Of a DNA stretch of 23,894 nucleotides, positions 670 to 22,880 are shown piece after piece; positions within the stretch are counted from its first letter, which is position 1, and the number at the start of each line of letters is the position of its first letter. The notes below the pieces were generated by a model. The model ran no database searches, had not been told where the DNA came from, and saw nothing but the letters and a program-made list of their open reading frames with translations. The stretch is taken from contig JAFOYK010000179.1 in the NCBI GenBank assembly GCA_017424665.1, positions 1 to 23,894 on the forward strand, written 5' to 3'. Position numbers and translations under genes: made by a program. The stretch comes from Oscillospiraceae bacterium (GTDB taxonomy: Bacteria > Bacillota > Clostridia > Oscillospirales > Ruminococcaceae).

Positions 670-744
670 ATGCAAGCATATCACTTGTGTGACGTCCGCA
701 CGATATGCGATGAAGCGGGAGGTTGCTGTCTGTGTGACAGGTAA
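670..744 (+). CDS. Possible 24-residue cysteine-rich leader ORF
   Basis: ATG at 670 opens a frame ending at TAA 742-744. The product has five Cys in 24 residues, with 'HLCDVRTICDEAGG' followed by 'CCLCDR'. No convincing Shine-Dalgarno site precedes it. It is in the same frame as the next small ORF, and its Cys-Asp pattern recurs there, as expected from the nucleotide-level repeats. It may be a leader peptide or only a by-product of the repeated RNA modules. Confidence 0.15.
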   Translation: MQAYHLCDVRTICDEAGGCCLCDR

Positions 745-756
745 TTTCCGCAGAGT

Positions 757-915
757 ATGTCCGATTTTAAACCGGGCGACAAGAAATACTGCACACCCAT
801 GTGTGTCGGCGTATGTGATGAGCTGCGTTCGACGGGTCTTGTTATTAAAGCGTGCCTTTGCTTTAAAAAGCTGGAGGTGCGCGCGTCCGGAGATACCTAT
901 GTCTATTATATATAA
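757..915 (+). CDS. Possible 52-residue cysteine-rich leader ORF
   Basis: ATG at 757 opens a frame ending at TAA 913-915. The product begins 'MSDFKPGDKKYC', carries five Cys (residues 12, 16, 20, 33, 35) including a 'CLC' pair, and ends 'GDTYVYYI'. I recognise no family. An internal ATG at 799 is in frame. There is no clear Shine-Dalgarno site, which argues against translation. The last eight sense codons cover the 5' arm of the hairpin at 888-940 and the stop codon lies exactly in its loop, so translation would melt that hairpin. This is the main reason to keep it as a candidate leader peptide. Confidence 0.22.
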   Translation: MSDFKPGDKKYCTPMCVGVCDELRSTGLVIKACLCFKKLEVRASGDTYVYYI

Positions 916-15070: not shown

Positions 15071-16021
15071 ATGTTAGAAATTGAAAAACCGAGAATCGAA
15101 GCCGAAGAAAACCCCGAAAACCTCAGCTACGGAAAATTCGTTGTTGAACCTCTCGAGCGTGGATTTGGTACGACTCTTGGTAACAGCCTGAGACGCGTAT
15201 TGCTCTCCTCGCTTCCCGGCGTTGCTGTAACGTCCGTAAAGATTGACGGAATCCGTCATGAATTTTCCACCATTCCCGGTGTAAAAGAGGACGTCACCGA
15301 AATCATCCTCAACATCAAAGGCCTTACCGCAAAACTTCATTGCGACGGCCCCAAGGTTGTTGTAATTGATGTTTCCGGTGAACAAGAAGTCACTGCCGGT
15401 TCAATCCAGGCCGATTCTGAAGTCGAAATTCTCGACAAAGACATGCATATCGCAACTCTTGACAGCGATGGCCACCTTTTCATGGAAATTACCCTTGACA
15501 AAGGCCGCGGCTATATTTCCGCTGAAAGAAACAAACAGGATATGCAGCCTGCAATCGGCGTAATTCCCGTTGATAGTATTTATACTCCGGTACTGAAGGT
15601 AAACTATACTGTTGAAAACACTCGTGTTGGTCAGATTACCGACTACGATAAACTTACCCTCGAGGTTTGGACAGATAATACCATTTCCGCTAAGGAAGCA
15701 GTATCTCTCGGAGCTAAGGTCCTCAATGAACATCTCAACCTGTTCGTGGATCTTTCTGAAGACGCCTTCAAAGGCGAGATCATGGTAGAAAAGGACAACA
15801 ACTCTAAAGAGAAAGTCCTTGAGATGACCATTGAAGAACTTGACCTGTCCGTAAGAAGCTTCAACTGCCTCAAACGTGCAGGAATCAACACTGTCGAAGA
15901 CCTTATCGGCAAATCCGAGGACGAAATGATGAAAGTTCGTAACCTTGGTAAGAAGTCCCTTGAAGAAGTTGTTGCTAAGCTTGAATCTCTTGGCTTCAAC
16001 CTCAACAAGGAAGAAGATTGA
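15071..16021 (+). CDS. rpoA: DNA-directed RNA polymerase subunit alpha
   Basis: 316 residues. The N-terminal domain (to about 230) has '[20 protein letters not shown]' followed by '[20 protein letters not shown]', the dimerisation and beta-contact region. After an acidic linker the C-terminal domain has '[20 protein letters not shown]' and '[20 protein letters not shown]'. The RS.NCLK and NLGKKS residues that bind UP-element DNA in E. coli (R265, N268, C269, K298 region) are kept, consistent with use of the phased A-tracts upstream of this operon's own promoter. Confidence 0.98.
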
Positions 16022-16046
16022 TTGAATCAAAAAGGAGTGAATATCG

Positions 16047-16388
16047 ATGTCCGGAACTAGAAAGCTCGGTCGTGCTACCGACTGCAGAAGAGCTATGCTC
16101 CGCGCGATGGTCACCTATCTGCTTGAAAACGGCAAGATTGAAACCACCGTCACTCGTGCAAAAGAAGTTCGCGCTATGGCTGAGAAGATGATCACTATTG
16201 GTAAAAATAGCGATCTTCATTCCAAACGTCAGGTTTTTGCTTTCGTAACCAAGGAAGCAGTTGCAAAGAAACTCTTTGACGAGATCGCACCTAAATACGC
16301 CGAAAGAAACGGCGGTTACACCAGAATCATCAAAATTGGCCCCCGCCGCGGTGACGCAGCAGAAATGGCTATCATTGAGCTTGTGTAA
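16047..16388 (+). CDS. rplQ: 50S ribosomal protein L17
   Basis: 113 residues, the usual bacterial length. It has '[20 protein letters not shown]', '[20 protein letters not shown]' and the end '[20 protein letters not shown]' then 'AIIELV'. Last gene of the superoperon. The stop at 16386-16388 is followed by a strong terminator 27 bases later. Confidence 0.98.
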
Positions 16389-16413
16389 TTAATAGAGCAT
16401 AATTCTTAAGAAA

Positions 16414-16444
16414 TGCCTCCGGAGAAATCCGGAGGTATTTTTTT
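16414..16444 (+). terminator. Rho-independent terminator of the ribosomal superoperon
   Basis: CCTCCGGA (16416-16423) and TCCGGAGG (16428-16435) form a perfect 8-bp stem with a GAAA tetraloop, extended by G-U and T-A pairs, and a run of seven T follows (16438-16444). It separates the ribosomal genes from the next promoter at 16485. Confidence 0.96.
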
Positions 16445-16484
16445 GGCGCAATTTTCAAAAACCGCATTATAAAGCCAAAAAGCC

Positions 16485-16513
16485 TTGAAAAAAAGAAGGA
16501 AATTTGTTATAAT
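16485..16513 (+). promoter_or_regulatory. Sigma-A promoter of the DUF62-ECF operon
   Basis: TTGAAA (16485-16490) and TATAAT (16508-16513) stand 17 bp apart. The start would be near 16520, leaving a leader of about 82 nt. With the terminator just upstream, this makes the following genes a separate transcription unit with a strong housekeeping promoter. Confidence 0.87.
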
Positions 16514-16547
16514 TTCTGTAATTGATTATATATTGGATAAGTCTGTT

Positions 16548-16570
16548 TTTTAATTTTGGAAAAATTAAAA
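16548..16570 (+). repeat. AT-only inverted repeat in the DUF62 operon leader
   Basis: TTTTAATTTT (16548-16557) and AAAATTAAAA (16561-16570) are exact reverse complements with a three-base loop GGA. In RNA this forms a weak 10-bp hairpin about 10-15 bases before the Shine-Dalgarno of the first gene. It has no T-run. I could not match the leader to a SAM, purine or preQ1 riboswitch. Confidence 0.5.
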
Positions 16571-16601
16571 TCTGATATGAAAATCGGAGGAAAATATAAA
16601 A

Positions 16602-17441
16602 ATGGAAAAACCTATTCTTGTTTTTCAAACTGACTTTACTTATAAAGAAGGCGCAGTTTCCGCAATGTACGGCGTTGTAAAAACTGTTGACAGAAGCCTT
16701 GAAATTTTCACCGGCAGCCATGAAATTCCTCATTTTGATGCCTGGAGCGCAAGTTACCGCCTTTGGCAGACTGTTCGCTTCTGGCCGAAAGGCACAATTT
16801 TTGTTTCTGTTGTTGACCCCGGCGTTGGCACCGACAGAAGAGCTGCCGCGGTTAAAACTAAAGACGGCTATGTTATCATTACTCCCGATAACGGAAGCCT
16901 TACTCACATCGTTAAATTCCACGGTGTTGAAGAAGTTCGCATGATCGATTACGCTAACAGAAGACCCACCAGCGAAGGCAGTGCTGTTTTCGACGGAAGA
17001 GACCTTTTCGGATATAACGCAGCAAGACTTGCAGCGGGACAGATTTCTTTCGAAGAACTTGGCCCGGAATATCCCGCAGAAGAAATTGTAATGATCGATA
17101 TGCCGAAAGCTCATTCCGAAGAGGGGATGGTTTCCGGATATTTTGAAATTGTTGACCCCAACTTCGGCAATATGTGGTCCAACATTCTTGCTGAAGATTT
17201 TGAGCACGCAGGCTTTGAATACGGCGAAGAGCTTGTGCTCAAAGTTGAGCACGAAGGTGAAACCGTGCTCGAAAAAGCAATGCCTTATTGCAAAGCTTTC
17301 GGTGACGTTAAAAAAGGGGAGCCCCTTCTTTACACAAATGAACTTCTTCACGTTTCCGCAGCTCTTTCCGAAGGAAGCATGCTTGAGGAATATAAACTCG
17401 GTTTCGGCCCGGAATGGAAAGTTGAAATCAGGAGGAAATAA
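16602..17441 (+). CDS. SAM hydroxide adenosyltransferase family protein (DUF62), variant active site
   Basis: 279 residues, full-length DUF62/COG1912. Family motifs are 'LVFQTDFTYKEGAVSAMYGV' near the N-terminus, 'FVSVVDPGVGTDRR' (residues 67-80) and 'ITPDNGSLTHI' (93-103). Characterised members hydrolyse S-adenosylmethionine to adenosine and methionine using water activated by an Asp-Arg-His triad. Here D72 and R79 fit the Asp and Arg, but the usual 'FHGRD' reads 'FDGRD', putting Asp131 where His is expected. It may use another nucleophile, have low activity, or act as a partner of the paralogue that starts two bases downstream. The next gene's Shine-Dalgarno lies in the last codons of this one. 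Family sure; activity open. Confidence 0.88.
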   Translation: MEKPILVFQTDFTYKEGAVSAMYGVVKTVDRSLEIFTGSHEIPHFDAWSASYRLWQTVRFWPKGTIFVSVVDPGVGTDRRAAAVKTKDGYVIITPDNGSLTHIVKFHGVEEVRMIDYANRRPTSEGSAVFDGRDLFGYNAARLAAGQISFEELGPEYPAEEIVMIDMPKAHSEEGMVSGYFEIVDPNFGNMWSNILAEDFEHAGFEYGEELVLKVEHEGETVLEKAMPYCKAFGDVKKGEPLLYTNELLHVSAALSEGSMLEEYKLGFGPEWKVEIRRK

Positions 17442-17443
17442 TT

Positions 17444-18289
17444 ATGTCCGATGCGCTTGTTTTTCAAAGTGACTTTGGTCTTGTTGACGGTGCGGTTGCC
17501 GCAATGTATGGCGTTGCCCTTGATGTGGACAAAGATTTGAAAATTTTCAATCTTACCCATGACATAACGCCTTATAACATCTGGGAGGCAAGTTACCGCC
17601 TTTATCAGTCCGTTGAATATTGGCCGAAGGGAACGGTTTTTGTTTCCGTTGTTGACCCGGGCGTTGGTTCTTCCAGAAAAAGCGTTGTTGCGAAAACTTC
17701 CCAGGGACAGTTTATTGTAACCCCCGATAACGGAACTCTTACCCATATCAAAAAGAATATCGGAATCGTTTCCATAAGGGAAATTGACGAAAGCCGCCAC
17801 AGAAGACAGAACACCGAATTCAGCTACACTTTCCACGGAAGAGACGTTTACGCCAACACCGGCGCAAAACTTGCTTCCGGAAAAATAAGTTTCGAAGAAG
17901 TTGGTCCGGAACTTCCGATTGAAAAAATTCTTGAACTTCCCTGCGGAGAAGTTGTTGTGGAAGAAAAAAACGTTTCCGGATGCATTGATATTCTTGACGT
18001 TCGATTCGGAAGCCTTTGGACAAACGTTCCGAGAGAAGATTTCAAGAAAATCGGAGCAGAATTCGGCGACAGGATCGAAGTTACCATTTATAACAACGCG
18101 ATGCTTGTTTACCAGAACTACATCATGTACGGACATTCCTTTGCGGACGTCCGAATTGGTGAACCTATCATCTATGTAAACTCCCTTTACCGGATGGCTG
18201 TTGCGATCAACCAGGGTTCTTTCGCAAAAGCTTATAACATCGGTACCGGAAACCACTGGAAAATTGTTTTCAGAAAGATTTCCGATTAA
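17444..18289 (+). CDS. SAM hydroxide adenosyltransferase family protein (DUF62), intact triad
   Basis: 281 residues, a paralogue of the preceding gene along its whole length (shared 'AMYGV', 'ASYRL.Q.V..WPKGT.FVS' and 'VVDPGVG' blocks). The family triad is complete: D71 and R78 in 'VVDPGVGSSR' and H131 in 'YTFHGRDVYA'. The expected reaction is SAM + water to adenosine + methionine. DUF62 enzymes are trimers with the active site between subunits, so mixed trimers with the upstream paralogue are possible. The two-base spacing means nearly coupled translation. Its neighbours are an ECF transporter, so the substrate may be imported rather than made in the cell. Confidence 0.9.
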   Translation: MSDALVFQSDFGLVDGAVAAMYGVALDVDKDLKIFNLTHDITPYNIWEASYRLYQSVEYWPKGTVFVSVVDPGVGSSRKSVVAKTSQGQFIVTPDNGTLTHIKKNIGIVSIREIDESRHRRQNTEFSYTFHGRDVYANTGAKLASGKISFEEVGPELPIEKILELPCGEVVVEEKNVSGCIDILDVRFGSLWTNVPREDFKKIGAEFGDRIEVTIYNNAMLVYQNYIMYGHSFADVRIGEPIIYVNSLYRMAVAINQGSFAKAYNIGTGNHWKIVFRKISD

Positions 18290-18353
18290 AAAGTTCGTTC
18301 TATGCAAAACGCATAACGATATAAAGTCAAAAAACCTATAGGAGGGTAAAATT
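18290..18353 (+). promoter_or_regulatory. Spacer between DUF62-2 and the S component, with a small hairpin
   Basis: CGT (18296-18298) with ACG (18316-18318) and TATGC (18301-18305) with GCATA (18311-18315) form an eight-pair stem with a two-base bulge and a five-base loop. No T-run follows. TATAGGAGGG precedes the next ATG. I see no promoter consensus, so the S component is probably co-transcribed. Confidence 0.35.
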
Positions 18354-18938
18354 ATGCTTAAAAAATTTGTTGGCGAATGGAACACCAAAACCATCGTAGC
18401 AGTTGCAATCGGCGCAGCTCTTTACGGCGTACTTATGGTATGGGGCTCCATTCCGGTATTCACTAACACCAACCTTACCAGCGCAATGATCGTTCCTGTT
18501 GTTGTTGGCGCACTCTTCGGACCGCTTCCCGCAACTGTAGCACTTCTCGTTGGTAACTGCCTTGCTGACCTTATCGGCGGTTGGGGCTTCTGGTTCGACT
18601 GGTCCGTTGGTAACGGCGTTCTCGGTCTTTTCGTAGGCCTTCTTCCTCTCTATGGCGCAGACATCAAAAACGGTATCTTCAAAGTAAAACACGCTGTTAT
18701 CTACACCATCTGCTGCCTTCTCGGTAACGCAATTGCTTTCGGCATTGTAACCCCTGTTATGACCTCTCTCTTCTATTCTGCAGACCTTGAAATTACTTTC
18801 CTCCAGAGCTTTGCAGGCGGTATTTCCAACACTGCTGTTCTTGTAGTTATCGGCATTCCCGTTCTTGTTCTTCTTTCCAAACGTTATGCTTCCAGAGCAA
18901 ACCTTGTTGAAGAACCCGAAGAACTTACCGAAGAATAA
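18354..18938 (+). CDS. ECF transporter S component (substrate-binding membrane protein)
   Basis: 194 residues with about five or six hydrophobic segments (roughly 14-34, 42-66, 83-100, 112-136, 152-176). The early 'IGAALYGVLMVW' segment resembles the AxxxA-type first helix of S components that contacts EcfT. 'PVVVGALFGPLPATVALLVG' and 'LADLIGGWGFWFDWSVGNG' recall the COG4720/DUF1393 group of S components with their D-W-S-x-G-N motif. S components bind the solute outside and topple in the membrane when joined to an EcfT-EcfA module, which is encoded just downstream. The substrate cannot be read from sequence; the DUF62 pair points to an adenosyl or nucleoside compound. The acidic tail 'EEPEELTEE' is cytoplasmic. 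Confidence 0.85.
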   Translation: MLKKFVGEWNTKTIVAVAIGAALYGVLMVWGSIPVFTNTNLTSAMIVPVVVGALFGPLPATVALLVGNCLADLIGGWGFWFDWSVGNGVLGLFVGLLPLYGADIKNGIFKVKHAVIYTICCLLGNAIAFGIVTPVMTSLFYSADLEITFLQSFAGGISNTAVLVVIGIPVLVLLSKRYASRANLVEEPEELTEE

Positions 18939-18957
18939 TTTTTTTGAAACCGATTTT

Positions 18958-18994
18958 CGTCCCTCCGCTTTGCGGAGGGACGGATTTTAGTTTT
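18958..18994 (+). terminator. GC-rich hairpin with broken T-run between S component and ATPase genes
   Basis: CGTCCCTCCGC (18958-18968) pairs without mismatch with GCGGAGGGACG (18972-18982) around TTT. The following bases are GATTTTAGTTTT, an interrupted T-run. This would act as a partial terminator, giving more DUF62 and S-component transcript than ATPase and T component. Full termination would leave the ATPase without a recognised promoter. Confidence 0.65.
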
Positions 18995-19057
18995 AAAAGC
19001 AGGCATAAAAGAGCCCTGAAAAAACATTTTCCGGTTGTTTTATGCCTACTTTTTAAA
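18991..19057 (+). repeat. Long imperfect inverted repeat just before the ATPase ribosome binding site
   Basis: AGGCATAAAA (19001-19010) and TTTTATGCCT (19038-19047) are exact reverse complements, and the stem continues outward to 18991 and 19057 with two mismatches, 18 pairs in all around a 27-base loop. Five T (19050-19054) lie in the 3' arm. It ends four bases before AAGGAG (19061-19066). It could be a second weak terminator, a translational switch, or a remnant of a small palindromic repeat element. Confidence 0.55.
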
Positions 19058-19074
19058 GAAAAGGAGCTGCTGAA

Positions 19075-20790
19075 TTGGAAAAGAAACCGATTATTGAATT
19101 TAAAGACTTTAGTTTTAAATATAAGATCCAGAGCAAGGCGACCCTTCGTGATATAAATCTTACTATTTATGAAGGTGAAAAAGTTCTTATCCTCGGACCT
19201 TCCGGCTGCGGAAAATCCACCCTTATGAGCTGCATCAACGGACTTATTCCTTTTTCGAACGAAGGCGAAATCACCGGAAGCTGTAAGGTCAACGGAAGAG
19301 AAACCAGAACTCTTTCCATTTTTGAACTTTCCAAAGAGGTCGGAACCGTTCTTCAGGACAGCGACGCCCAGTTCGTAGGTCTTTCCGTCGGTGAAGATAT
19401 AGCTTTCTCTATGGAAAACGAAATGGTTCCGAGAAAGGAAATGATTCCGGAAGTTGAAAAACTTGCCGGAACCGTGGGAATGGAAGATTTTATCAAAGCG
19501 CTTCCTTTCGATCTTTCCGGCGGACAGAAACAGAAAGTTGCTCTTGCCGGCGTAATCAGCGATAAGGTAAACATTCTTATGTTCGACGAACCCCTTGCGG
19601 CTCTTGACCCCAAGATGGGCGTTGCGACCATTGAACTTATCGACAGGGTTTCCCAGGATAAAACCAAAACTGTTCTTATAATTGAGCACAGACTTGAGGA
19701 CGTTCTTTACCGCCCGGTGGACAGAATCATCCTTATGGGCGAGGGAAGAATCGTTGCGGATACCACCCCAATCGAGCTTCTTAATTCCAATCTTCTTAAA
19801 GAAAGCGGCGTTCGCGAACCGCTTTATCTCACCGCGATGAAATATGCGGGATGCGATATTTCCGCAAACAAAACCATTTGCGATATTGAAAACCTTGAGC
19901 TTTCCGATGACGACAAAGAAAAACTCATCGCATTTTTCCATGAGGAAACTCCTGAAATCAAAAAAGAACCCGGCGAGGAAGTTATCCGCCTTGATGACGT
20001 AACTTTTGCTTATGAACACGGAAAACCCGTTGTAAAGGGACTTGATACCGTCATCAGAAAAGGCGAAAGAGTTGCAGTGGTCGGCAAAAACGGTGCGGGA
20101 AAATCCACCATGGCAAAACTTATAACCGGAATTCACCGCCCGAACAAAGGACATATTTACATAGACGGAAAGGATTATAAAAAATCCACCGTTAAAGAAA
20201 TCGGTGAAGAAGTGGGCTACGTAATGCAGATGCCCAACCAGATGATAGTTAAAGACCTTATCAAAGATGAGGTCGAACTTGCGCTTCGCCTTCGCAATAT
20301 TTCCGAAGAGGAAATTACCGAGCGCGCGGCGGAAGCCATGAAGGCATGCGGACTTTATTCCATGAGAAAATGGCCGGTGGATTCCGTCAGCTACGGACAG
20401 AAAAAACGTGTTACCGTCGCAAGTATCATGGCTCTTGGTCCGGATACCATCATTCTTGATGAACCGACGGCCGGTCAGGATTATCGCCACTATACCGATA
20501 TCATCAAATTTATCAATAAGCTCAACAGCGAATACGGAAAAACCATCATCTTTATCACCCACGATATGCATCTTGCGATTGAAAACACCGACAGAGCAAT
20601 CGTTTTTGCGGATGGAAAGATAATCGCGGATGAATCCGTTTATTCCGTTCTTTCCAACGACGAAATCATCGAAAAGGCAAACCTTAAGCAGACCAGCCTT
20701 TATATGCTTGCCAAAAAGCTTGATCTTTCGCCGGAAAAATTTATCGAGCACTTTATCCGTTATGAAAGGATGGTGAAATCGGGTGAATAA
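19075..20790 (+). CDS. ECF transporter ATPase with two fused ABC domains (EcfA-EcfA')
   Basis: 571 residues, two ABC domains in one chain. Domain 1: Walker A GPSGCGKST (41-49), Q-loop Q94, signature LSGGQ (147-151), Walker B ILMFDEP (167-173), H-switch H205. Domain 2: Walker A GKNGAGKST (337-345), signature VSYGQ (438-442, SGGQ changed to SYGQ), Walker B D462-E463, H496. It powers solute uptake with EcfT. TTG at 19075 is the start: AAGGAG is eight bases upstream and the strand-1 sequence 'PIIEFKDFSFKY' follows. The last eight bases overlap the T-component gene. Fused ATPases of this kind (YkoD-like) usually belong to dedicated, single-substrate ECF systems. Confidence 0.93.
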   Translation: MEKKPIIEFKDFSFKYKIQSKATLRDINLTIYEGEKVLILGPSGCGKSTLMSCINGLIPFSNEGEITGSCKVNGRETRTLSIFELSKEVGTVLQDSDAQFVGLSVGEDIAFSMENEMVPRKEMIPEVEKLAGTVGMEDFIKALPFDLSGGQKQKVALAGVISDKVNILMFDEPLAALDPKMGVATIELIDRVSQDKTKTVLIIEHRLEDVLYRPVDRIILMGEGRIVADTTPIELLNSNLLKESGVREPLYLTAMKYAGCDISANKTICDIENLELSDDDKEKLIAFFHEETPEIKKEPGEEVIRLDDVTFAYEHGKPVVKGLDTVIRKGERVAVVGKNGAGKSTMAKLITGIHRPNKGHIYIDGKDYKKSTVKEIGEEVGYVMQMPNQMIVKDLIKDEVELALRLRNISEEEITERAAEAMKACGLYSMRKWPVDSVSYGQKKRVTVASIMALGPDTIILDEPTAGQDYRHYTDIIKFINKLNSEYGKTIIFITHDMHLAIENTDRAIVFADGKIIADESVYSVLSNDEIIEKANLKQTSLYMLAKKLDLSPEKFIEHFIRYERMVKSGE

Positions 20791-21664
20791 CCGTTTTCTT
20801 ATAAACTATACCCCCGGTTCCACTTTTTTGCATAAACTTAACGGAACCACAAAGGTAATCGGCTTTATCGCAATAACCATTGCGATCATCGCAACTTTCG
20901 ATTTCAGAATCATGCTTGCGATTTTCCTTCTTTGCATGGCAGGCGTTGCAAGCATGAGACCCAACTGGAAACCCATCGCTTTTATGTTCGGTTTCCTTAT
21001 CGTTATGAACGGAATTATCGGAAGCCTTATGGTAATTGTAATTTCTCCCGAATCCGGACTTACGAAAACCGGAATGGAAACGGTTTTCTGGTCAACGGCA
21101 AACGGAAGATTTTATCTCAGCTGGGAACTTCTTTGGTACACCTGGGCAATGTTCTTTAAAAGAGTTGCTTCTCTTTCTTCCGCAATGCTCTTTGTTCTTT
21201 CCATAACTCCTTCGGAGCTTGCGGCGGGACTTAACAGCATCAAAATGCCTTATAAAGTCTGCACCATCGTTTCCCTTGCTTTCCGTACCATTCCCGATAT
21301 CGCAAGAGATTTTACCGACATCAAAAATTCCATGATGATGCGCGGCGTTGAACTTGAAAAAGCTTCTCTTTCCAAAAAACTCAAGCAATATATCATAATG
21401 CTTGTTCCGCTTCTTATGAGCAGCTTTGCGAAAGTTGAAAACATTTCCAACTCCATGGATCTCCGTTCTTACGGAAAATGCAAAGGAAGAACCTGGTACA
21501 GCGAACACCCCGCAACAAAAGGCGATTATATCGCCAGAGGCGGAATCGTTCTTATTTTCCTTTGGTGCGCTTTCTATATTATTTTCTTCCGCAACATGCA
21601 TGCTCCGCTTGTTGATTTCTGGTGCCCCTGGGTTCCGCAGGAAATTTCCGGTTATTGGTTCTGA
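20783..21664 (+). CDS. ECF transporter T component (EcfT-like permease)
   Basis: 293 residues, with hydrophobic segments near the N-terminus ('VIGFIAITIAIIATF', 'FMFGFLIVMNGIIGSLMVIV'), in the middle ('AMLFVLSITPSELAAGL') and at the C-terminus ('IVLIFLWCAFYIIFF'). Two coupling-helix motifs typical of EcfT are present: 'MMMRG' (R187) and 'MDLRSYG' (R228); these helices dock in the ATPases. EcfT joins the S component to the ATPase pair. The start is GTG at 20783, eight bases inside the ATPase gene, so the two are coupled and probably made in fixed ratio. The tail after the last helix is longer than in minimal EcfT. Confidence 0.92.
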   Translation: MNNRFLINYTPGSTFLHKLNGTTKVIGFIAITIAIIATFDFRIMLAIFLLCMAGVASMRPNWKPIAFMFGFLIVMNGIIGSLMVIVISPESGLTKTGMETVFWSTANGRFYLSWELLWYTWAMFFKRVASLSSAMLFVLSITPSELAAGLNSIKMPYKVCTIVSLAFRTIPDIARDFTDIKNSMMMRGVELEKASLSKKLKQYIIMLVPLLMSSFAKVENISNSMDLRSYGKCKGRTWYSEHPATKGDYIARGGIVLIFLWCAFYIIFFRNMHAPLVDFWCPWVPQEISGYWF

Positions 21665-21675
21665 TGAGGTGAAAT

Positions 21676-22437
21676 ATGGCTTTTGAACATTTTGTTGTCC
21701 ATATTCCCCATAATTCCTTCGAAATTCCGGAAAGTTATAAAAACAGTTTCTGCATCAGCGAAAAGGAAGTTTTTCGTCAGCAGCTTTTTATGACCGACGC
21801 ACACACAGCCGAACTTTTTTGCGATGATGAAATTGCGAAAGTTCGCGTAATAAACCCGGTCAGCCGCCTTATTTGCGATGTTGAAAGATTCCGCGACGAT
21901 AAAGACGAATATAACGCCGAAAAAGGCCAGGGCCTTATGTATACCAAAGGAATGTTCGGAAAAAAACTTCGCGACTATGACGAAAACTTAAGAAACAGAA
22001 TTCTTGAGGAATTTTACGACCCGCATCACGCAAGACTTACCGAAGCGGTCGAACTTGCCCTTGAAAAAACCGGAAGATGCACAATTCTTGACGGACACAG
22101 TTTTAATTCCGTCTGGCCGATAAAGCGCGACTGTTTTTTCAGAAGACCGGATTTCTGCATCGGTACCGACCCTTTCCATACTCCTAAAGGACTTGAGGAA
22201 GCTTTGGTAAAAGCATGTAAAGAAGCGGGTTATCATGTAAGGGTGAACACCCCTTATTGCGGAACCATAACTCCGATCAAACATTACGGAAAAGACAAAA
22301 GAGTTTTGAGCATTATGGTCGAAGTTAACCGCAAGCTTTATATGAACGAAAAAACCGGAGAAAAAACCAAAGGTTTTGAAAAAACAAAAGAAATGTGCCG
22401 CAAACTTATGAAAATCGCGGCGGAATATGAAGAATAA
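21676..22437 (+). CDS. N-formylglutamate amidohydrolase-like protein (FGase/HutG-type fold)
   Basis: 253 residues. Family motifs seen are 'VVHIPHNSFEIP' (residues 7-18), 'LICDVERFRDD' (about 65-75), 'ILDGHSFN' (about 137-144) and 'VEVNRKLYM' (about 215-223), which supply His, Asp and Glu residues of the metal-dependent hydrolase site. Known members release formate from N-formylglutamate at the end of a histidine degradation route, but no other hut gene is in the window. The gene begins 11 bases after the T component with GAGGTG as Shine-Dalgarno, so it belongs to the ECF operon. It may hydrolyse an amide in the imported compound; this is inference. Confidence 0.85.
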   Translation: MAFEHFVVHIPHNSFEIPESYKNSFCISEKEVFRQQLFMTDAHTAELFCDDEIAKVRVINPVSRLICDVERFRDDKDEYNAEKGQGLMYTKGMFGKKLRDYDENLRNRILEEFYDPHHARLTEAVELALEKTGRCTILDGHSFNSVWPIKRDCFFRRPDFCIGTDPFHTPKGLEEALVKACKEAGYHVRVNTPYCGTITPIKHYGKDKRVLSIMVEVNRKLYMNEKTGEKTKGFEKTKEMCRKLMKIAAEYEE

Positions 22438-22466
22438 AAAATGCAGGCTTTGCCTGCATTTTTTTG
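22436..22466. terminator. Terminator at the end of the DUF62-ECF operon
   Basis: ATGCAGGC (22441-22448) and GCCTGCAT (22452-22459) form a perfect 8-bp stem with a TTT loop, with A's before and seven T after, so it can work in both directions. It begins right at the stop codon of the FGase-like gene. Confidence 0.93.
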
Positions 22467-22501
22467 TTTTCGGTTACGGAAAATGACAAAAAAATCGGTG
22501 G

Positions 22502-22537
22502 GCCTGTCTGTATTATATATGCAGACAGGCTTTTTTT
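22502..22537 (+). terminator. Second terminator-like hairpin, directly before the spoIIAA ribosome binding site
   Basis: GCCTGTCTG (22502-22510) pairs perfectly with CAGACAGGC (22522-22530) around an 11-base AT-rich loop, and seven T follow (22531-22537). The Shine-Dalgarno of spoIIAA (GGAGG 22542-22546) starts only four bases later. Any transcript entering from upstream would meet this before spoIIAA. It may be a back-up terminator protecting the sporulation operon from read-through, or an attenuator. Confidence 0.75.
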
Positions 22538-22553: not shown

Positions 22554-22880
22554 GTGCCGGTTGAAATAGATATTGATGAAAAAAGCGTTACCGCATATAT
22601 TTCCGGAGAAATCGACCACCACAACGCGGCGGGATTGAGAAGCAAAATTGACGAAGCGGTTGAAAATGCTTACCCGGAAGTTCTTATTCTTGATTTCGGC
22701 GGGGTGACTTTTATGGATTCTTCCGGAATCGGGCTTGTTATGGGAAGATATAAACTTATGAAGAATCTTTCCGGAAAGGTTTTTGTGGAAAACGCGCCGC
22801 GCCAGATAAAGAAAGTTTTGAGAATGGCGGGAATTGAAAAAATGCTTTCCGAAAAGAGCGGAAAGGAGGTTTTGGTATGA
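22554..22880 (+). CDS. spoIIAA: Anti-sigma F factor antagonist SpoIIAA
   Basis: 108 residues, a STAS-domain protein. 'VEIDIDEKSVTAYISGEIDH' and 'LDFGGVTFMDSSGIGLVMGR' are the family core; the first or second Ser of 'MDSSGIG' (about residues 56-57) is the site phosphorylated by SpoIIAB. The unphosphorylated form pulls SpoIIAB off sigma-F in the forespore. GTG at 22554 is the start: GGAGG is seven bases upstream and homologues begin right before this beta strand. An upstream in-frame extension to 22464 would be translated from inside the terminator hairpin and is rejected. It overlaps spoIIAB by four bases (ATGA). Confidence 0.96.
   Translation: MPVEIDIDEKSVTAYISGEIDHHNAAGLRSKIDEAVENAYPEVLILDFGGVTFMDSSGIGLVMGRYKLMKNLSGKVFVENAPRQIKKVLRMAGIEKMLSEKSGKEVLV

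Follow-up and report, generated by a model that had tools for sequence, protein, structure and literature searches.

Association of SAM hydrolase-like genes with a dedicated ECF transporter: a possible methionine/SAM salvage module in an Oscillospiraceae bacterium

What purpose might two SAM hydrolase-like genes serve in a cluster that also encodes an importer and an amide hydrolase? This question is raised by contig JAFOYK010000179.1 (assembly GCA_017424665.1) of a gut-type Oscillospiraceae bacterium; the window is the whole stretch analysed, 23,894 nt in length. An earlier note on this DNA had proposed that the cluster imports an adenosylated or nucleoside-type solute and breaks it down.

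Layout of the cluster and its proteins

A profile search returned six co-directional genes with the coordinates and families first given for them: HAT1, HAT2, S, double ATPase, T and FGase. The features in the window are the following.

16485..16513, + strand: promoter-like site, sigma70-type with extended -10 (TTGAAA, 17 nt, TG-TATAAT), 11/12 matches, preceding HAT1
16602..17441, + strand: HAT1, SAM hydroxide adenosyltransferase-like (HAT/DUF62); PF01887 147.6 bits, PF20257 54.4
17444..18289, + strand: HAT2, SAM hydroxide adenosyltransferase-like (HAT/DUF62); PF01887 170.7 bits, PF20257 77.5
18354..18938, + strand: ECF S component; PF07155 109.5
18939..19074, + strand: S-ATPase gap of 136 nt with two long hairpins, the first (18956-18984) 13-pair and terminator-like
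19075..20790, + strand: double ECF ATPase, its two fused halves separated by DUF3744; start codon TTG; PF00005 twice
20783..21664, + strand: ECF T component; CbiQ family, 87.4
21676..22437, + strand: FGase-fold metallo-amidohydrolase; PF05013 146.2 against a cut-off of 28.9
22436..22464, + strand: terminator-like hairpin with T-run, 3' of the FGase gene

The cluster (16602..22437) had been described as tightly spaced throughout. The genes, families, single direction, promoter and terminator of that description stand, while the spacing is not uniform: the gaps between successive genes measure 2, 64, 136, -8 and 11 nt. The -10 of the promoter-like site is kept in two relatives (L003 and L004), one of which also has the -35, altered at a single position. 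The S-ATPase gap has a predicted fold of -56.6 kcal/mol (z -7.15), and in the same two relatives its first stem is identical and its second nearly identical. Because of these hairpins, one uninterrupted transcript across the six genes is not assured.

In both HAT proteins, the N- and C-terminal domains score above the Pfam cut-offs (26.3 and 25.5). The defining catalytic triad of SAM hydroxide adenosyltransferases is Asp-Arg-His. It is complete in HAT2, and all three residues are kept in 110 of 124 aligned HAT proteins. HAT1 keeps the Asp and Arg but reads FDGRD against the FHGRD of most family members, with Asp at the His position, and the altered triad is also found in L003 and L004. HAT1 has Glu at the column where HAT2 has the Ser of an NS motif, and HAT2 has FGS at the place of FGN in HAT1. 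Both proteins fall below the NCBIfam equivalog cut-offs for (R)-SAM hydrolases (HAT1/HAT2 117.3/136.1 against 350 for NF058624; 94.2/117.1 against 470 for NF053629), and below the fluorinase cut-off (TIGR04507, 81.6/101.8 against 400). HAT chemistry is described in the available part of PMC12120602, which leaves the role of HAT unsettled.

The dedicated ECF module is complete, with S, two ATPase domains and T in one gene cluster. Among the S-component residues invariant over 54 aligned homologues are D72, W80, W83 and Q151, and the window protein is 25-31% identical to ten distant PF07155 S proteins aligned with it. The solved structures nearest to it, ThiT, RibU, FolT and 4hzu, are tied. A single-sequence match to 'Nucleoside transporter 1' chains (E 0.0009) was absent with the family profile and was taken as chance.

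In the FGase-fold protein, H9, H12, D68, E70, H117, H118, D139, H141 and E216 are invariant over 49 aligned sequences. It scores 58.5 bits in the HutG model TIGR02017, below the cut-off of 278.75.

Conservation of the neighbourhood and its RNA control

The earlier note placed DUF62 genes near ECF transporter genes in Firmicutes, which is borne out. In the family of the window's genome, the two adjoin in 11 of the 12 HAT-bearing genomes (119 searched); at the class level, they adjoin in 15 of 17 (391 searched), and at the phylum level in at least six of 16 (299 searched). The three samples each contain the window's genome, and overlap mutually and with the 67-locus set. The association thus extends beyond close strains, and the first refuting condition of the earlier note, a neighbourhood confined to such strains, does not hold. 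A chance figure of about 1e-14 assumes independent loci; the loci are not independent, and the figure is not relied on.

For the ten other HAT-bearing genomes of the phylum sample, eight regions were read (L161-L168; one of two for G190), and none contains an S or T gene. The same is true of the HAT regions L209 and L222. Few genomes have a HAT gene: 16 of 299 in the phylum sample and 17 of 391 in the class sample. PF07155, by contrast, is found in at least 269 of the 299. The majority of PF07155 genes are unrelated to HAT.

Gene content was compared over 54 loci of the S component whose downstream sequence runs to 4.3 kb or more, the window included. ATPase and T genes are present in all 54 and a HAT gene in 50, leaving four with ECF genes and no HAT. 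S-A-T without HAT was seen in L114 and L116. Of the 54 loci, 38 have an M20 dipeptidase-like gene, five have FGase, none has both and 11 have neither; in most relatives M20 stands after T, where the window has FGase. FGase is confined to one clade (5 of 68 loci), where it takes the place of M20. It therefore looks like a swap for M20, with amide hydrolysis as the shared step; as a general part of the system, FGase is out. The 391 class genomes contain four further, more distant FGases, none of them near an S or T gene; the reading frame of one is interrupted by a stop. The trees were made by a quick method and by FastTree under simple models, and carry warnings of long branches. Judged by length, some contigs occur under two names (L212/L011, L214/L019 and L160/L046).

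Some neighbours point to methionine. A MetI-type gene lies directly upstream of S in five loci (L042, L050, L053, L055 and L066), and in L113 a MetQ-M20-MetN-MetI series lies upstream of HAT. L113 also has a nucleoside phosphorylase (PF01048) before A-T, which fits use of adenosine; no relative of it was found at E 1e-12 among 103 loci searched.

Rfam models were scanned in 66 loci, including the two without ECF genes (L209 and L222). A SAM riboswitch was found in six, each just upstream of the S gene and on its strand; 43-75 nt separate its end from the longest reading frame of S. HAT genes follow downstream in the same direction in four of these (L042, L055, L059 and L066); the other two contigs end earlier. 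A distant relative, L109, has a T-box with a Met specifier directly before HAT-S-A-T; the ATG in the specifier region is common to six aligned T-boxes. RNA control was thus seen in only seven of the 66 loci, six of them mutual close relatives. In the window itself, neither a riboswitch nor a T-box reaches gathering score, and this covers the Mts-type methionine control RNA. One SAM riboswitch of the window's own genome (C136) lies where a contig ends, upstream of a short frame of unknown kind, and is uninformative for the operon.

Salvage and competing explanations

The best reading of the cluster, about which confidence and doubt are evenly divided, is a methionine/SAM salvage module importing an adenosylated sulfonium compound. 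Served by a dedicated ATPase and T, the S component would take up either SAM that other cells release, for which the biologically inactive (R,S) epimer might be the most useful form, or an N-acylated derivative of SAM. In the HAT step, water would attack C5' to give adenosine and methionine (or N-acyl-methionine), and the amidohydrolase (FGase here, M20 elsewhere) would remove an N-acyl or aminoacyl group to yield free methionine. We infer import, its direction, the substrate, the order of steps and any joint action of HAT1 and HAT2.

This salvage reading draws on the gene content, the wide linkage, methionine/SAM control in some relatives, the mutual exclusion of M20 and FGase, and the complete triad of HAT2. 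The frequency of HAT at S-component loci despite its overall rarity, the MetI-type neighbours and the L113 phosphorylase also speak for it. Should HAT be produced under low SAM, its purpose is unlikely to be destruction of useful SAM made by the cell, which argues for an imported substrate or the useless epimer. The adenosylated solute of the earlier note fits and is strengthened by the methionine/SAM control in relatives; FGase, however, is no general part of the system. Counted against salvage are the absence of a control RNA in the window and of the catalytic His in HAT1, the small number of loci with RNA control, the many PF07155 genes unrelated to HAT, the HAT regions without S or T, and the loci that lack HAT or have neither M20 nor FGase. 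The psuG-type gene in L112 and the GNAT gene in L110 are unexplained by it.

A more specific version is doubtful: N-acylated or (R,S) SAM might enter through the ECF transporter and be split by HAT1 and HAT2 acting as one composite hydrolase, with the His-less HAT1 supplying part of an interface site, after which a deacylase (M20, or FGase by swap) would complete a dedicated pathway from damaged or conjugated SAM to methionine. If true, many DUF62 proteins would gain the physiological role that they still lack.

The main competitor, possible though less probable than salvage, is an importer of methionine or a simple precursor (such as N-acyl-methionine, a Met dipeptide or S-methylmethionine), with M20 or FGase freeing methionine and HAT only recycling the cell's own (R,S)-SAM when methionine is short. 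SAM riboswitch and Met T-box control in relatives agree with this, as do two tested M20 proteins whose scores (300.3 and 304.2, cut-off 207.95) place them in the Sapep dipeptidase subfamily, two loci (L068 and L007) with S-A-T plus M20 or FGase and no HAT, and the MtsA annotation in S. suis (PMC9423846, in its available part). However, ECF linkage is commoner for HAT (50/54) than for M20 or FGase (43/54), HAT adjoins distant S components in regions where no M20 was found (L109-L112, L149-L154), and L158 and L159 have five tandem HAT genes after S-A-T.

Another reading, which seems improbable, has the transporter bring in nucleosides or nucleobases (adenosine, pseudouridine or a modified nucleoside), from which an adenosyl compound is made for HAT to act on. 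Neighbours that would suit it are the phosphorylase of L113 and, in L112, the psuG-type gene that precedes S (PF04227, 437 bits); SAM and tRNA-Met control would not be expected, the phosphorylase is without a relative in the 103 loci, and the weak nucleoside transporter match disappears with the family profile. Least credible by far is import of riboflavin beside unrelated HAT genes, in line with the Pfam name of PF07155. The S component passes the NCBIfam 'riboflavin' model PRK13661 (129.8 against a cut-off of 99), whose substrate name is a label and not an assay, and among solved structures the profile search ranks 3p5n, a riboflavin uptake protein, highest (E 0.0073). At gathering score, neither the window nor the 66 loci gave an FMN riboswitch, which makes the label doubtful. 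With the model passed, this RNA missing and the nearest structures tied, the second refuting condition of the earlier note, an S component within a group of known unrelated substrate, is neither upheld nor dismissed.

Taken as salvage of an imported adenosyl compound, the combination of HAT, one importer and an amide hydrolase, with SAM or tRNA-Met control in some relatives, gives a concrete, testable role. The gene set offers a way to test the purpose of SAM-hydrolase genes, with the S component as the protein to assay; its substrate would also bear on the 'riboflavin' label.

Comparison with known systems

No publication pairing DUF62 with an ECF transporter was found, which is weak evidence of absence given thin coverage of subscription journals. 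HAT with ECF, M20 or FGase is untreated in the available parts of PMC4418817, PMC3766115, PMC11477304, PMC9423846 and PMC12120602.

Already known, as an annotation name, is a methionine-regulated ECF transporter: S. suis SSUSC84_0348 is annotated as its MtsA (PMC9423846, available part). By that annotation, MtsA is a methionine-controlled ECF S component, and some relatives of the window share this control. The S. suis gene preceding it carries the name 'DNA-directed RNA polymerase subunit delta', which the HAT-family chain of PDB 7ccg also bears; the pair may be a HAT and a PF07155 protein. Unlike MtsA, the window's branch has an amidohydrolase, and the window has no control RNA.

The window HATs share both domains with the SAM hydroxide adenosyltransferases (DUF62; solved 2zbu, PH0463 and MJ1651), a family known for SAM hydrolysis, and HAT2 shares the Asp-Arg-His triad. 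They differ from these examples in having two paralogous types in one operon, distinct at two columns, in the ECF linkage, and in the changed triad of HAT1 in the window, L003 and L004. The window FGase is 25% identical over the aligned part to 2q7s of the N-formylglutamate amidohydrolase/HutG type. In contrast to HutG, it sits in a HAT-ECF operon and is the sole PF05013 match of its incomplete genome.

Sulfur salvage of the Bacillus ytmI/yxe type combines an N-acetyltransferase, C-S cleavage and an M20 deacylase. The GNAT in L110 and M20 in many loci recall this logic, with HAT replacing the monooxygenase and the ECF transporter replacing the binding-protein importer.

The operon and its setting

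The earlier note read six genes as two DUF62 SAM hydrolases, a complete ECF transporter and an FGase-like hydrolase under one promoter, and the gene families are borne out by Pfam and NCBIfam. HAT1 and HAT2 are both SAM hydroxide adenosyltransferase-like proteins. Next comes the ECF S component, a PF07155 protein; the ATPase (A) is a double, fused one that carries DUF3744, the T component is of CbiQ type, and the final hydrolase (FGase) belongs to PF05013. A site resembling a promoter precedes the operon, and a hairpin closes it. The intergenic gaps are, in order, 2, 64, 136, -8 and 11 nt. The 136-nt gap holds two long hairpins, with stems that the two closest relatives (L003 and L004) retain; they may act as an internal terminator or as a processing site that yields more S than ATPase.

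Features of the window
702-782: S10-Clostridia ribosomal protein leader (RF03136, 56.4 bits)
15071-16602: rpoA and rplQ, directly preceding the operon start, as in L003 and L004
16602-22437, forward strand: the six genes
18939-19074: S-ATPase gap, 136 nt, two long hairpins, the first terminator-like; folding z -7.15
22500-22532: another terminator-like hairpin, downstream of the FGase gene and ahead of spoIIAA (GTG start near 22554)

The draft genome holding the window is 73.5% complete and, judging from its closest relatives that carry names, of Oscillospiraceae type. Upstream of the six genes lies a ribosomal-protein operon, then rpoA and rplQ (by eye); downstream are spoIIAA and spoIIAB (Pfam/NCBIfam) and a sigma-factor-like frame (by eye). 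In many Firmicutes, the position after rpoA/rplQ is occupied by the shared ecfA1-ecfA2-ecfT genes. In L154, a locus of a distant S branch, rpoA is also found just upstream.

Conservation of the HAT-ECF neighbourhood

A scan for the S component, with one genome per species and regardless of HAT, gave 67 loci, or 68 with the window. Gene content was counted in the 54 loci with at least 4.3 kb downstream of S, window included. A and T are each present in 54/54 and HAT in 50, with two or more HATs in 35; the HAT-less loci are L006, L007, L037 and L068. M20, a dipeptidase-like gene that follows T in most relatives, occurs in 38 and FGase in five (window included). The two never occur together (0/54), and 11 loci have neither. 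Across all 68 loci, contig ends included, HAT is found in 55, M20 in 40 and FGase in 5.

HAT genes themselves are rare (16/299 phylum genomes and 17/391 class genomes). In the window's family, where 119 genomes were searched, HAT adjoins ECF genes in 11 of 12 HAT-bearing genomes; one of the 11, L155, has A and T only, and the remaining one, L156, is at the end of a contig. The class figure is 15/17, the exceptions being L209 and L222, and the 15 include L217, which sits at a contig end and has just A and T. In the phylum, HAT adjoins ECF genes in at least 6/16 HAT genomes. S or T genes were absent from the eight HAT regions read (L161-L168) among the ten other phylum HAT genomes, one of the two HAT places of genome G190 being read within that set.

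The linkage reaches a second, distant S branch (L109-L113, L149-L154, L216, L218-L221, L223 and L224), in which ten aligned S components share 25-31% identity with that of the window; L114 and L116, of the same branch, carry S-A-T without HAT. Inside these clusters no M20 was found, the one exception being a member of a different subfamily that lies within a Met cluster in L113. In L113, HAT-S is preceded by MetQ-M20-MetN-MetI, whose Met-transporter proteins do not reach the NCBIfam equivalog cut-offs, and A-T by a nucleoside phosphorylase. At L113:7719-8312, directly upstream of HAT-S, lies another ECF S component, of the Trep_Strep/MptD family (82.7 bits vs 76.45). In L112 (3397-5425), the genes directly before S are one of psuG type (PF04227) and, by eye, one resembling a kinase.

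Two HAT types

When 124 HAT proteins, each 230 residues or longer, are aligned, two columns distinguish HAT1 (FGN and Glu, 24 proteins) from HAT2 (FGS and Ser, 69 proteins), with 31 others. These columns presumably match the fluorinase residues touching the adenine and the amino-acid end. One of each type is present in 20/39 loci with two or more aligned HATs. The Asp-Arg-His catalytic triad is complete in 110/124, and the His is replaced by Asp in HAT1 of the window, L003 and L004. Five tandem HAT genes follow S-A-T in L158 (8146-12207) and L159 (7322-11168), and at each locus the triad is missing from one of the five. In a separate alignment, PDB 7ccg, a HAT-family chain that bears the name 'DNA-directed RNA polymerase subunit delta', keeps 0/3 triad residues. 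Since the active site of the family sits between trimer protomers, according to one study (PMC12120602), a mixed HAT1-HAT2 trimer is possible.

Control, substrate and known systems

An Rfam scan of 66 loci at the gathering score found SAM riboswitches in six (L042, L050, L053, L055, L059 and L066) and no FMN riboswitch. Between the end of each riboswitch and the longest reading frame for S there are 43-75 nt, and by eye a terminator-like hairpin lies close to the start of that frame. S-A-T-M20 and then HAT genes follow in L042, L055, L059 and L066; the L050 and L053 contigs stop sooner. S in L042, L055 and L066 is directly preceded by MetQ-, MetN- and MetI-type genes, and these by a T-box; the L050 and L053 contigs start within such a cluster. 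Because the six are close relatives, they count as few events. A T-box directly precedes HAT-S-A-T in L109, of the distant branch, and is a separate event. L043 and L059 each have a further T-box on the downstream side of the operon, that of L043 preceding a MetN-like gene. ATG is common to the specifier regions of all six T-boxes in alignment.

By the logic of these elements, the system would be made in such relatives when SAM or methionine is low. Hydrolysis of usable SAM made by the cell itself would then be harmful, and an imported substrate for HAT is thus favoured, namely an adenosylated sulfonium. The main rival is that methionine or N-acyl-methionine is imported, with HAT in a side role. 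GNAT-type acetyltransferase genes lie between or after HAT genes in L110 (9724-10530, by Pfam), L111 (9006-9875) and L067 (4344-5159; both by eye), which suggests N-acylation chemistry. For the favoured adenosylated sulfonium, the inactive (R,S) epimer of SAM would be the most natural choice, because one HAT family member prefers this epimer, as the same study states (PMC12120602). Eleven columns are invariant among 54 aligned S components, including D72, W80, W83 and Q151; the Asp and Trp would suit a cationic ligand, although this is only suggestive.

For the HAT, M20 or FGase parts, no publication was found in the literature searched, to which most subscription journals do not belong. A methionine link is not new to this sort of ECF transporter, since 'methionine-regulated ECF transporter', with MtsA as its S component, already serves as an annotation name, as in S. 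suis (PMC9423846). There, the MtsA gene adjoins one annotated as 'DNA-directed RNA polymerase subunit delta' (PMC9423846), which is the name carried by the HAT-family chain 7ccg.
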